The notes under the pieces: generated by a model
Told to the model about the DNA's origin: nothing
Database searches by the model: none
Seen by the model: the letters and a program-made list of their open reading frames with translations, nothing else
Made by a program: the position numbers and the translations under genes
In this document: piece after piece, positions 31,489 to 36,380 of the stretch
Numbering within the stretch: position 1 is the stretch's first letter
Layout of the letters: each line of letters begins with the position of its first letter
Assembly (NCBI RefSeq): GCF_026968045.1
Contig: NZ_JAPVBQ010000001.1
Coordinates: 633,238 to 697,237 of the forward strand
Source of the DNA: Modestobacter sp. VKM Ac-2977
GTDB taxonomy: Bacteria; Actinomycetota; Actinomycetes; Mycobacteriales; Geodermatophilaceae
Reading direction: 5' to 3'
DNA: 64,000 nucleotides

Positions 31489-31890
31489 TCAGGGGGCGAA
31501 CGCGCCGTCGCTGATCGAGGCGAGCACCCAGATGTAGGCCACCAGCCCGATGACCATGAAGGTCGTGACGATGCCGCCGACGATCACGGCGACCACCGCC
31601 AGGCCGCCGCCCCTCTCGCCGGTCCGCCGGACCTGCCGGCCGGCCACCAGGCCGAGCACCAGGCCGACCGGGGCGAACACGAAGGCGGTGAACAGGGCGA
31701 CGATCGCGAGCTGGTTGGTCGGCCGTTGCCAGCCGGGGCCGTAGGCAGACCGGCCGTACCTGGGAGGTCCGTACGCGGGAGTCCCGTACCCGGGAGGCCC
31801 GTACCCCGGAGGCCCGTACCCCGGAGGTCCGTACCCCGGCGGCGCGCCGTACGGCGGTGGGTCCCCGCGGTAGAAGTCGTCCTGGCTCAC
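31489..31890 (-). CDS. DUF4190-type small membrane protein with Pro-Gly-Tyr repeats
   Basis: The 133-residue protein has a Gly/Pro/Tyr-rich N-terminus made of repeats of the form PGYGP (about residues 12-50). Two hydrophobic helices separated by a short basic loop (GRQVRRTGERGGG) follow, as in DUF4190 proteins. It starts at GTG 31890. The function is unknown; such Pro-rich small membrane proteins are common in actinobacteria. Confidence 0.75.
   Translation of the reverse strand: MSQDDFYRGDPPPYGAPPGYGPPGYGPPGYGPPGYGTPAYGPPRYGRSAYGPGWQRPTNQLAIVALFTAFVFAPVGLVLGLVAGRQVRRTGERGGGLAVVAVIVGGIVTTFMVIGLVAYIWVLASISDGAFAP
31754..31843 (-). repeat. 15-bp tandem repeats encoding the PGYGP units
   Basis: Six 15-bp units begin with CCGTAC on the plus strand and diverge slightly between copies. 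They encode the repeated Pro-Gly-Tyr motif of the DUF4190 protein and may vary in copy number between strains. Confidence 0.7.
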
Positions 31891-32814: not shown

Positions 32815-33753
32815 ATGAGAGCTGCAGGAGTGACGGAGTTCGGTGGTCCCGAGGCCCTGCGCCTGGTCGACGTCCCCCGGGAGCCGCTGGGCCCGGGTCA
32901 GGTGCGCGTGCGGGTGACGGCGGCGGCGGTCAACCCGACCGACACCTACGCCCGCAACGGCACCTACGCCCAGCGCGACCCGGTCAAGGAGCCCCCCTAC
33001 GTGCCGGGGATGGACGTCGCCGGCACGCTGTCCGAGATCGGCGACGGCGCGGACACCGACATCCACGCCGGCGAGCACGTGATGGGCATCGTCGTCCCGT
33101 CCGGTGCGCACGGCGGCTACCGCGAGGACGTCGTGCTGCCCGCCGGCTCGATCGCCCGCGTCCCCGAGGGCGTCGGCGACGCCGCGGCGGCCACGCTGCC
33201 GATGAACGGGCTCACCGCCCGGCTCGCGCTGGACCGGATGGCGCTGCAGCCGGGCCAGGTGCTCGCGGTGACCGGCGCGGCCGGGGCGTTCGGCGGTTAC
33301 GTCGTCCAGCTGGCCAAGACCGAGGGGCTGACCGTGGTGGCCGACGCCAAGGCCGAGGACGAGCAGCTGGTGCGCGACCTGGGTGCCGACGTCGTCGTCC
33401 GGCGGGGGGACGACGTCGCCGACCGGATCCGCGAGCAGTTCCCCGACGGCGTCGACGGGCTGGCCGACGGCTCGGTGCAGGATGCCGCCGTGCTGCCCGC
33501 GGTCAAGGACGGCGGGGCCGTCGCGACCGTGCGCGGCTACCGCGGCGACGGGCAGCGCGACCTGCGGGTGTTCCCGGTGATGGTGCGCGACTACGCGGAG
33601 GAGCACGCCAAGCTGGACCGGCTGCGCGAGCAGGTGGAGAAGGGCGAGATCACCCTCCGGGTGGCGCAGACCTTCCCGGCGGCGAAGGCCGCGGAGGCGC
33701 ACCGGCGGCTCGAGGCCGGCGGCGTGCGGGGACGCCTGGTCCTCACCTTCTGA
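32815..33753 (+). CDS. NADP-dependent quinone oxidoreductase-like protein (MDR, zinc-free)
   Basis: The 312-residue medium-chain reductase has the quinone oxidoreductase N-terminus (MRAAGVTEFGGPEALRLVDV), AAAVNPTDTYARNG, and a Rossmann motif AVTGAAGAFGGYVVQLA. No catalytic zinc cysteines are present, so it is a zeta-crystallin/QOR-type NADPH reductase. It starts at ATG 32815. The next gene, encoding the Ser-x-x repeat protein, begins 20 bp after the stop with its own ribosome binding site, so they may share a transcript. Confidence 0.87.
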   Translation: MRAAGVTEFGGPEALRLVDVPREPLGPGQVRVRVTAAAVNPTDTYARNGTYAQRDPVKEPPYVPGMDVAGTLSEIGDGADTDIHAGEHVMGIVVPSGAHGGYREDVVLPAGSIARVPEGVGDAAAATLPMNGLTARLALDRMALQPGQVLAVTGAAGAFGGYVVQLAKTEGLTVVADAKAEDEQLVRDLGADVVVRRGDDVADRIREQFPDGVDGLADGSVQDAAVLPAVKDGGAVATVRGYRGDGQRDLRVFPVMVRDYAEEHAKLDRLREQVEKGEITLRVAQTFPAAKAAEAHRRLEAGGVRGRLVLTF

Positions 33754-33772
33754 CCGCGATAGGAAGGCCCGC

Positions 33773-34081
33773 ATGAGACGCAGGCGCTCGTGGGGCTCGC
33801 TCTGGTCGAAGGGCTCGGTGCTGTCGATCGGCTCCACCGGGTCGGTGCTGTCCATCGGCAGCGTCGGCTCGGTGCTGTCGATCGGCAGCATCGGCTCGTC
33901 CTGCTCGCTGTTCAGCATCGGGTCGAGCACGTCGATCGGGTCGGCGGCGTCCTGGCTGTCGATCGGGTCGGTGCTGTCGGCGGAGTCCCGGCGGTCGGTG
34001 CTGTCCTGGCGGTCGGTGAGGTCCTGGCGGTCGTCGGGGGAGTGCGCCGGGGAGTGTGACTGCTGCGGGTCGGCCGGCTGA
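33773..34081 (+). CDS. Ser-x-x triplet-repeat protein, unknown function
   Basis: The 102-residue protein opens with MRRRR and then keeps a serine at every third position for about 28 successive triplets (for example GSVLSIGSTGSVLSIGSV). A 9-residue super-period G-S-V-L-S-I-G-S-x is clear in the first half and decays later. Hydrophobic Val/Leu/Ile alternates with Gly between the serines. The C-terminus is Cys-rich (GECAGECDCCG). The start ATG 33773 follows AGGAAGG at good spacing, which supports real translation. Three-residue periodicity suggests a beta-solenoid or polyproline-type bundle with a serine ladder. No function is known to me. Confidence 0.75.
   Translation: MRRRRSWGSLWSKGSVLSIGSTGSVLSIGSVGSVLSIGSIGSSCSLFSIGSSTSIGSAASWLSIGSVLSAESRRSVLSWRSVRSWRSSGECAGECDCCGSAG
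33812..34027 (+). repeat. 27-bp tandem repeats within the Ser-x-x gene
   Basis: Eight 27-bp units encode the 9-residue period. The first three are nearly identical and later units diverge, as expected from stepwise duplication. TCG is the dominant serine codon. Confidence 0.7.
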
Positions 34082-34741
34082 TCAGCCCAGGTGCTTGGCC
34101 GCCTCCCGCCGGGAGAGCGGGCTGAGCTCGTGCTCGGCCAGGAACCGGCGCACCCAGTCGGGGTCGGTCTTGGTGTGCTCGCGCAGCGCCCAGCCGATCG
34201 CCTTGCGGACGAAGAACTCCGGGTCGGCGGCGTTGACCTCGATCACCTCGGCCAGCAGCGCGGTGTCGGTGCGCTCCTTGGCGCCGAGCTGGGCGATCAC
34301 CGCGCTGCGCCGCAGCCACCGGTCCGGGTCCCGCGCCCAGCTCTGCAGCACCGGTCGCAGTTGCGCGGGGTGGGCGAGCAGCAGGTCGCGGACCCGAGGC
34401 TGGACCCCGTCGACCAGGTCCCACCACGCGCCGGTGGTGATCATCTCCTCGTACAGCGGCAGCAGCTCCAGGGCATCGCGGGCGACGGGCAGCCCGGTCA
34501 GCGCGATGGCGGCGTGGCGCTCCTCCCGCACGGTCGCCTCCCGCCACAGCGCACCGGCGGCCCGTTCGACGTCCGGTGGGTGCGCGGCCGCGGCGGCCCG
34601 GACGATCCGGCGGACGTCGGGCAGCCGCACCCCGAGGCAGGGCTCCTCCGTCTTCAGGTAGGCCTGCATGCCGCGGCCCCGCTCGGGGTCGGCTGCCGCC
34701 CGCAGCGCGGCGCGCACCTCCGGGACCAGGTCAGCGGCCAT
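34082..34741 (-). CDS. DNA alkylation repair protein (AlkD-like HEAT-repeat)
   Basis: The 219-residue all-helical protein matches the AlkD family of HEAT-repeat DNA glycosylases: EPCLGVRLPDVRRIVR, REERHAAIALTG, WWDLVDGVQPRVRDLLL and EFFVRKAIGWALREHTKTDP. The WD and RK positions lie where AlkD contacts damaged DNA. It would excise alkylated purines. The start is ATG 34741; its stop is shared in a TGATCA with the end of the convergent Ser-x-x gene. Confidence 0.88.
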   Translation of the reverse strand: MAADLVPEVRAALRAAADPERGRGMQAYLKTEEPCLGVRLPDVRRIVRAAAAAHPPDVERAAGALWREATVREERHAAIALTGLPVARDALELLPLYEEMITTGAWWDLVDGVQPRVRDLLLAHPAQLRPVLQSWARDPDRWLRRSAVIAQLGAKERTDTALLAEVIEVNAADPEFFVRKAIGWALREHTKTDPDWVRRFLAEHELSPLSRREAAKHLG

Positions 34742-34841
34742 GCCGGCGATCCTGCCGCAGTCGGATCGCCTGGCGGGAGCCCTCGTGCGAGGCTGCCCGG
34801 GGAGGTCGCCCGCCGGTGCGCGGCCCTGGTCGGGAGGTCCC

Positions 34842-36380
34842 GTGAACGGCGCGCAGGCAGTCATCCGCACCCTGGTCGACGGCGGGGTGGACGTCTGCTT
34901 CGCCAACCCCGGCACCTCGGAGATGCACTTCGTCGCGGCCCTGGACGACGTCCCGGAGATGCGTGCCGTGCTCACCCTGTTCGAGGGGGTCGCCACCGGC
35001 GCCGCCGACGGGTACGCGCGGATGACCGGGTCGCCGGCGGCCACGCTGCTGCACCTGGGGCCGGGGCTGGGCAACGGGATCGCCAACCTGCACAACGCCC
35101 GCCGGGCACGGACGCCGCTGGTCAACGTCATCGGCGACCACGCGCTGACCCACAAGCGGCTGGATGCGCCGCTGGAGTCCGACATCGACGCGCTGGCCGG
35201 CACGGTGTCCGGGTGGGTGCGCCGGTCGCTGGCCACCAGCGAGGTCGGTGCGGACACCGCCGACGCGATCGCCGCGGCGACCCGCGGTCAGGTGGCCAGC
35301 CTGGTGCTGCCGGCCGACGTCTCCTGGAGCGACGGCGCCGCGGTGGCCGCCGTCCCGGCCCGGCGCCCGACCCCGCAGGTGCCGGCCTCCGTGGTGGCGG
35401 AGGTGGCCGGCGTGCTCGGCGGTTCGACGGTGCTCTTCCTCGGCGGCGACGCGGTGCTCGAGCCCGGGCTGCGGGCCGCTGCCCAGGTCGCCGCGGGCAC
35501 CGGTACCCGGCTGCTGTCCCAGCGGTCCCCCGCGCGGATGCAGCGCGGGGCCGGGCTGCCCGACGTGCTCAAGCTGCCCTATCCGCCCGAGGGCGCCCGC
35601 AAGCAGCTGGCCGGCGTGCAGCACCTGGTGCTGGTCGGGGCCGCTGAGCCGGTGGCGTTCTTCGGCTACCCCGGCATGGACGGCCGGCTGCTGCCCGAGG
35701 GCTGCACGGTGCACGTGCTCGCCGAGCCGGGGGAGGACGCCGTCGCGGCGCTGCAGGCCCTGGCTGAGTCGACTGCACCGGACGCCGTCCCGGAGCTGGC
35801 CGAGGCCCGCCGTCCGGACCTGCCCACCGGGGAGCTGGACATCAAGGCCCTGGCCGAGGTGGTCGGCGCGTTGCTGCCCGAGCGGGCGATCGTCGTCGAC
35901 GAGGCGCTGACCAGCGGCTACTTCCTCCCCATGGCGACCGTCGGGGCGCCGGCGCACGACTGGCTGACCCTCACCGGCGGGGCGATCGGGCAGGGGATGC
36001 CGGTGGCCACCGGCGCCGCGGTGGCCTGCCCGGACCGGCCGGTGGTCTCGCTGCAGGCCGATGGCAGCGCGATGTACACGATCCAGGCGCTGTGGACCCA
36101 GGCCCGCGAGGAGCTCGACGTCACCACGGTCATCTGCGACAACAGCGCCTACGCGATCCTGGCCAGCGAGCTGGAGAGCGTCGGGGCGGCCGGCGGGGGA
36201 GAACGCGCCGGGAAGCTGCTGGACCTGGGCGGGCCGGCGCTGGACTTCGTCGCGCTGGCCACCGGGATGGGCGTGCCGGCCACCCGGGCCACCACCGCCG
36301 AGGAGCTGGCCGAGCAGTTCCGCGCCGCGCTGGCCGAGCCCGGGCCGCACCTGATCGACGCCGTCCTGCCGCGCGGCTGA
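34842..36380 (+). CDS. Thiamine diphosphate-dependent enzyme, acetolactate synthase large-subunit type
   Basis: The 512-residue ThDP enzyme has the three-domain layout. The catalytic Glu is in LFEGVATGAADGYAR near residue 50, the central domain is degenerate, and the C-terminal ThDP-Mg motif is GSAMYTIQALWTQAREELDV with NSAY. The N-terminal FANPGTSEMHFVAAL resembles IlvB-like and benzoylformate decarboxylase-like proteins of unassigned substrate rather than biosynthetic IlvB, and no ilvN or ilvC lies nearby. GTG 34842 follows GGAGGT. Annotators usually call this family acetolactate synthase; the true 2-keto acid is unknown. Confidence 0.82.
   Translation: MNGAQAVIRTLVDGGVDVCFANPGTSEMHFVAALDDVPEMRAVLTLFEGVATGAADGYARMTGSPAATLLHLGPGLGNGIANLHNARRARTPLVNVIGDHALTHKRLDAPLESDIDALAGTVSGWVRRSLATSEVGADTADAIAAATRGQVASLVLPADVSWSDGAAVAAVPARRPTPQVPASVVAEVAGVLGGSTVLFLGGDAVLEPGLRAAAQVAAGTGTRLLSQRSPARMQRGAGLPDVLKLPYPPEGARKQLAGVQHLVLVGAAEPVAFFGYPGMDGRLLPEGCTVHVLAEPGEDAVAALQALAESTAPDAVPELAEARRPDLPTGELDIKALAEVVGALLPERAIVVDEALTSGYFLPMATVGAPAHDWLTLTGGAIGQGMPVATGAAVACPDRPVVSLQADGSAMYTIQALWTQAREELDVTTVICDNSAYAILASELESVGAAGGGERAGKLLDLGGPALDFVALATGMGVPATRATTAEELAEQFRAALAEPGPHLIDAVLPRG

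Follow-up and report, generated by a model that had tools for sequence, protein, structure and literature searches.

The open reading frame at positions 33773–34081 of the window, the 64-kb stretch of Modestobacter DNA that was analysed here, encodes a 102-residue protein with serine at every third position, and this protein belongs to what is almost certainly a real protein family. The family is an uncharacterised and unnamed one of small accessory bacterial proteins, mainly from the Actinomycetota, which is the phylum that was searched most. It occurs in roughly one in four of the Streptomyces-like genomes sampled (at least 54 of 199), and we tentatively suggest that its members could be tail-anchored, self-associating membrane proteins. 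Its serine period, which runs through a median of 58 uncharged residues, was not modelled by AlphaFold2 from shallow alignments. If the core is ordered, the repeat architecture is possibly without a counterpart in the PDB, and if the protein acts at the membrane, it would represent a one-gene, apparently leaderless-expressed system that is testable in Streptomyces.

The coding sequence lies on the forward strand, as do all features described within it, with an ATG start and a TGA stop. The protein begins with the basic sequence MRRRR (33773–33787), as the initial annotation had reported, followed by a core of 28 consecutive Ser-x-x triplets (residues 6–89; 33788–34039) in which the third positions (residues 6, 9 … 87) are serine in 28 of 28 cases. 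The annotated run of about 28 triplets is therefore confirmed, and it stands far above the rest of the window: the runner-up among 1,001 six-frame segments of 20 or more residues has a triplet-serine score of 6, compared with 28 here, and 0 of 20,000 shuffles of the protein's own residues reached that score (shuffle maximum 12). A nine-residue super-period built on 27-bp DNA repeats had also been described, and in its exact form it covers only about the first third. TRF locates a 27-bp tandem repeat of 3.2 copies with 85% matches at 33812–33898, coding for GSVLSIGSx, whereas the later part is only loosely periodic (18 and 27 bp, 70–72% matches), so that the exact super-period is limited to that first part. 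Residues 14–70 (33812–33982) form a stretch of 57 residues without Asp, Glu, Lys or Arg and with a mean Kyte–Doolittle hydropathy of 1.1. A C-terminal repeat cap, SWLSIGSVLSAESRRSVLSWRS (33950–34015), was delimited by alignment and by the Streptomyces-like consensus, and the core is followed by a cysteine tail, ECAGECDCC (34040–34066). The serine codons of the protein are TCG (21), TCC (7) and AGC (4), and the GC content of the frame by codon position is 0.44/0.72/0.97 in a genome of 4.3 Mb.

The initial annotation had proposed looking for homologues that keep the triplet pattern outside the strain, and these were found in other genera and on Streptomyces plasmids. The window protein itself matches 12 of the 23 genomes of its genus, its own counted, at E 1e-7 or better, and the close relatives of this locus that carry a name come from Modestobacter, Modestobacter caceresii among them. 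A pattern scan gave 21 loci, among which L045–L049 were taken as generic repeats, and added Streptomyces, Kitasatospora, Terrabacter, Terracoccus, Hoyosella and a few MAGs. With a 15-member profile, matches at E 1e-6 came from at least 19 of the 96 genomes in the taxonomic family, of which 17 were counted as real (G068 and G076 were counted as generic or doubtful repeats), and at least 30 of 396 genomes were matched in the phylum, where 21 of 29 new loci pass the composition rule, L081 doubtfully. The Streptomyces-like genus, so called because near-identical proteins sit on named Streptomyces plasmids, was matched at E 1e-10, with one match in 52 genomes and two matches in each of two others. 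All of these profile counts are lower bounds, with at most 49, 12 or 23 first-look candidates scored per genome. The six genomes behind six of the pattern-scan loci have one match apiece.

A plasmid search with a Streptomyces-like member returned 8 records within an E limit of 10, two of which lay below E 1e-4, and one weak match (L153) proved to be a clear family member once translated. Of the three plasmid copies, two carry the annotation hypothetical protein, and in the third record no genes are listed at that place. The window protein gave no match as a query against plasmids and phages, probably because the low-complexity filter masks its core. Generic GSVGS-type frames (for example L045–L049, L067–L069, L087, L090, L091 and L096–L098) were excluded from the family. 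Two of the MAGs from the pattern scan are labelled Anaerolineae and Ktedonobacteraceae, and their serine-triplet frames (L042 and L044) could be members outside the Actinomycetota or else lie on mis-binned contigs.

The Streptomyces-like proteins inspected and most of the others inspected share a common plan, consisting of a variable N-terminus, a SLWSxxS-type start, a nonapeptide core of ∼57 uncharged residues and a non-repetitive, Trp/Arg-rich cap (SWLSxGSxLSAQSxWSVLSWRS). The consensus of 16 Streptomyces-like proteins reads SGSVLSLWSQDSVLSIGSVGSVLSxGSVGSALSVGSIGSALSVGSIGSALSLISAGSWLSTGSLLSAQSRWSVLSWRSS and then continues into a hydrophobic helix. Across the family the longest run without Asp, Glu, Lys or Arg spans 14–82 residues (median 58), with a mean hydropathy of ∼1.1. 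Distant members, such as L082–L095, are without the SLWS start and several are without the tail. No obvious signal sequence was seen at the N-termini inspected by eye. In one Modestobacter copy (L132/L004, genome G021) the triplet pattern is extended by a basic Arg-Ser insertion at the N-terminus, made up of about four six-residue repeats of the RGSSRS type.

The tails differ among lineages. By a rule of mean hydropathy of at least 1.4 over 17 residues downstream of the repeat, the 76 distinct proteins divide into 48 with a hydrophobic helix, 8 with a CxC-type tail (including L081, an artefact scored as Cys only through a frame running on) and 20 with neither; L005 and L010 just miss the threshold at 1.38. 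Most Streptomyces-like members are probably attached to the membrane via this tail. The window protein does not pass the hydrophobic-tail rule. The CxxxCxCC tail noted for it at the outset is there as described, although it is a lineage-specific trait rather than a feature of the family, the ECAGECDCCG tail being that of the window clade (L001–L004 and L012), in which a cysteine cluster appears to have replaced the hydrophobic tail. A second lineage without a hydrophobic tail, L074 and L079, ends in CHCQT, and Cys-ended tails may thus have arisen twice. The window protein is a poor representative of the family because it belongs to an unusual helix-less branch in which some relatives have lost or shortened the core.

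Codon comparisons between relatives show selection acting on the gene as a protein. Omega was 0.15–0.33 in 36 pairs of nine Streptomyces-like proteins, 0.03–0.62 in a second set of Modestobacter copies (L005 and L007–L011), 0.27–0.38 in the window clade and 0.28–0.77 in Terrabacter pairs. Tests of neutrality gave p values of 2e-7, 1e-9 and 3e-6 for three Streptomyces-like pairs and moderate values of 0.001–0.005 for four pairs of the second Modestobacter set, with the pair L117/L125 kept outside these tests on account of unequal lengths. The closest pair of the window protein (L001/L002) differs by three synonymous and three non-synonymous changes (p 0.22) and is uninformative. Identity at non-serine positions is 83% between cognate units of 16 proteins versus 47% between units within one protein, and since cognate units are more alike than units of the same protein, the repeat units are not being homogenised. 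Codon switching adds little support, as TCN and AGY codons are both used in just 1 of 25 conserved serine columns.

The segment shortly upstream of the ATG, TAGGAAGG (33760–33767), contains a candidate Shine–Dalgarno-like AGGAAGG (33761–33767) that overlaps a weak, candidate −10-like TAGGAA at −13. The AGGAAGG site that had been put forward as the ribosome-binding site is therefore present, but it is not family-wide, and even among the six genomes with the gene at this site, that of the window included, it occurs in three (L126, L127 and L128, but not L129, L131 and L132). A TAnnnA-like box at −13 is found in five of these six copies (L126–L129 and L132, but not L131). In the wider family, a [CT]ANNAT box begins within −14 to −11 in 27 of 29 upstream regions (28 Streptomyces-like regions and L076), and exactly at −12 in 24 of them. 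These 29 were drawn from 34 regions, and the omission of L072, L102, L103, L106 and L125, which had a doubtful start or no motif visible at the chosen start, favours the count, which would be 27 of 34 at worst. The three plasmid copies have a box of the same type. TA-like signals ∼12 bp upstream mark leaderless bacterial genes (PMC3160421), and because the position of the −10-type box matches this signal, the family gene apparently has its own promoter and leaderless expression. A consensus promoter and terminator scan of 33600–34200 found nothing.

In the window, the repeat gene is preceded by a gene of the zinc-type alcohol dehydrogenase/quinone oxidoreductase family (32815–33753, forward strand; Pfam) that ends 19 bp before the ATG, and is followed by a convergent gene for a DNA alkylation repair enzyme (34082–34741, reverse strand; Pfam). 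The stop codons of the repeat and alkylation-repair genes abut as TGATCA (34079–34084), where the scan gave no terminator-like site. The dehydrogenase gene lies near the alkylation-repair gene in all 17 Modestobacter loci read, and the repeat gene lies between the two in six of them. It is long in G000, G002, G018 and G021. The G019 copy encodes 54 residues with an in-frame contracted core and both ends kept, and the G017 copy (L128, 1408–1497) encodes only 29 residues, MRRRRRRRSWGSLWSCGCTGECDCCGSAG, from which the core has gone in frame while the Arg-rich start and Cys tail are kept; this short form could be either a relic of the gene or a miniature that still functions. The other 11 loci have no Ser-triplet run (best score 5), and they include that of G006, which is without the gene though its repair protein is 90% identical, as close as those of the carriers themselves. 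The core is thus dispensable in the window clade, being contracted in G019 and gone in G017, with the whole gene absent from G006.

Seven other Modestobacter genomes (G001, G003, G004, G009, G010, G016 and G022) have no copy between these two genes and a copy elsewhere, and five of these seven copies adjoin a shared neighbour, which is an MFS transporter in L005. In a weakly resolved tree of 62 of the 76 proteins, built from few columns and with 28 of its 59 inner branches open, the two Modestobacter sets occupy separate regions. This fits, but does not prove, separate acquisition of the two sets. Among Streptomyces-like loci, mostly with flanks of 1.5 kb and surveyed without frames overlying the repeat gene itself, 10 of 37 share a neighbour with another locus and the largest such group numbers six. 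As the remaining 27 share no neighbour and none is common to more than six, no conserved partner was seen in these loci, and by both the site comparison and this survey the upstream dehydrogenase is no conserved companion of the family. These comparisons show the repeat gene to be a loner whose neighbours change between lineages, and it occurs on plasmids as well.

Database searches gave no established family to which the proteins could be assigned. The 15 profile members matched no Pfam family at E 0.01, the window protein matched none even at E 1, and an Rfam scan of 33000–35000 found nothing. A weak match of one member to the NCBIfam family YdhT (E 0.0028) was taken as chance. Against solved structures the profile returned six matches within E 1, the best at 1e-4; those at the top are kinesin light chain fusions and were tentatively read as engineered linkers rather than relatives. 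The open-access literature, which does not extend to most subscription journals, held nothing on the family by repeat string or by description, and no text on a 'TIGSVS' peptide was found there. Two papers matched by repeat string were set aside, one a chance match that lies within a signal peptide in the text available (PMC2275737) and the other apparently an optics paper (PMC6685464).

We propose, at rather less than even confidence, that the family comprises tail-anchored, self-associating membrane proteins that form an assembly on the membrane side. After synthesis in the cytoplasm, the protein would be tethered post-translationally to the inner membrane through its C-terminal hydrophobic tail. 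The uncharged Ser-ladder core would then self-associate along its serine face, which may engage the bilayer too, yielding a repetitive membrane-associated assembly for which a scaffold, membrane stress and interference with invaders are candidate cellular roles. Trp/Arg-containing segments flank the nearly uncharged core at both ends. Against the model, 28 of the 76 proteins, including that of the window, do not pass the tail rule. Self-association of the core is a guess, because AlphaFold2 gave no confident core structure. Bacterial tail-anchored membrane proteins, which have been described in Streptomyces (PMC3087755), are small, have a single hydrophobic helix at the C-terminus and carry no signal at the N-terminus, and many family members may resemble them in this. 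However, among the tails consulted there none resembles those of the family, the text consulted describes nothing like the Ser-triplet core, and the window member is without the helix. A bolder and more doubtful version is that the Ser-x-x nonapeptide core would constitute a new structural repeat class, a serine-ladder assembly at the cytoplasmic membrane, with the gene as a one-gene scaffold or membrane-active system, mobile between actinobacterial genomes, and the tail, be it a Cys cluster or a transmembrane helix, as an interchangeable part.

Other explanations appear less probable. That the frame is no protein at all, but a DNA tandem repeat left open by accident in high-GC DNA, is barely credible: such DNA does hold many long spurious frames, and 27-bp repeats are present here, but the in-frame purifying selection, the conserved start and promoter box, the unique end segments and the conservation across genera largely refute it, and the real protein product asserted by the initial annotation is upheld by the same selection and by homologues beyond the strain that keep the triplet pattern. 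That annotation had further envisaged a folded beta-solenoid or polyproline-II-type structure, a rod whose serine face would bind ice, water or polysaccharide, which we regard as unlikely. Small beta-solenoids and antifreeze proteins likewise have tandem short repeats and a face of hydroxyl residues, and the strict three-residue period and the conserved segments at both repeat ends, as in capped solenoids, would suit such a fold. However, the known examples have longer coils and are secreted, whereas the N-termini seen here have no obvious secretion signal, 48 of the 76 members have a C-terminal hydrophobic helix and, to our knowledge, solenoid coils exceed the nine residues that a coil would have here. 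Neither of two AlphaFold2 runs, for which the alignments had 15 and 13 rows, gave a confident fold or any strands. The mean pLDDT was 43 for the window protein and 55 for a longer relative (L035, repeat block means 34–60), the later core was drawn in both as a low-confidence helix (58–87 and 63–108) and a C-terminal helix of L035 (128–150) was modelled at pLDDT ∼90. The fold is thus not predicted, although models of such low confidence neither show nor exclude a solenoid. The hydropathy peak at 120° per residue carries no independent weight because the serine period alone imposes it. The suggested link to desiccation tolerance is likewise unsupported, since the family occurs in Streptomyces-like genomes, Terrabacter and Hoyosella.

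About as improbable as the solenoid is a loner accessory gene whose small product would act on the membrane of its own cell, as a toxin-like or abortive effector. The scattered distribution, the plasmid copies, the Trp/Arg-flanked uncharged core with its hydrophobic helix and the contraction and absence of the gene among relatives are all in keeping with it, but no conserved partner was seen in the Streptomyces-like loci and selection acts on each repeat position. A repetitive RiPP precursor is more improbable still. Like the family, the His-Xaa-Ser precursor HxsA (NCBIfam NF038313) has a three-residue period containing serine, and the HxsA4 profile matched 10 of the 15 members with E values of 0.01 or lower, down to 8e-5. 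However, the family has no His period, and HxsA4, the only NCBIfam match of the window protein, scores it at 16.7 bits against a cut-off of 55, likely a low-complexity match. HxsB (TIGR03978) exceeded its cut-off in 0 of 12 carrier genomes and also in 0 of 14 controls, so that this comparison has no positive control; weaker radical-SAM matches occurred in 4 of the 12 carriers and 9 of the 14 controls. Repetitive radical-SAM substrates rich in Thr, Val and Gly are known, and the TVGG precursor TvgA resembles the family in its short repeats rich in Val, Gly and a hydroxyl residue, but has a four-residue unit and a five-gene cluster (PMC9062424). No such cluster was seen around the family gene, no radical-SAM domain was found in the ten neighbours scanned and no neighbour is conserved.

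Elsewhere in the window, a 133-aa frame on the reverse strand (31489–31890) has YGPPGYGPPGYG repeats followed by hydrophobic stretches, and contains a DNA tandem repeat with a 15/30-bp unit (31754–31843).
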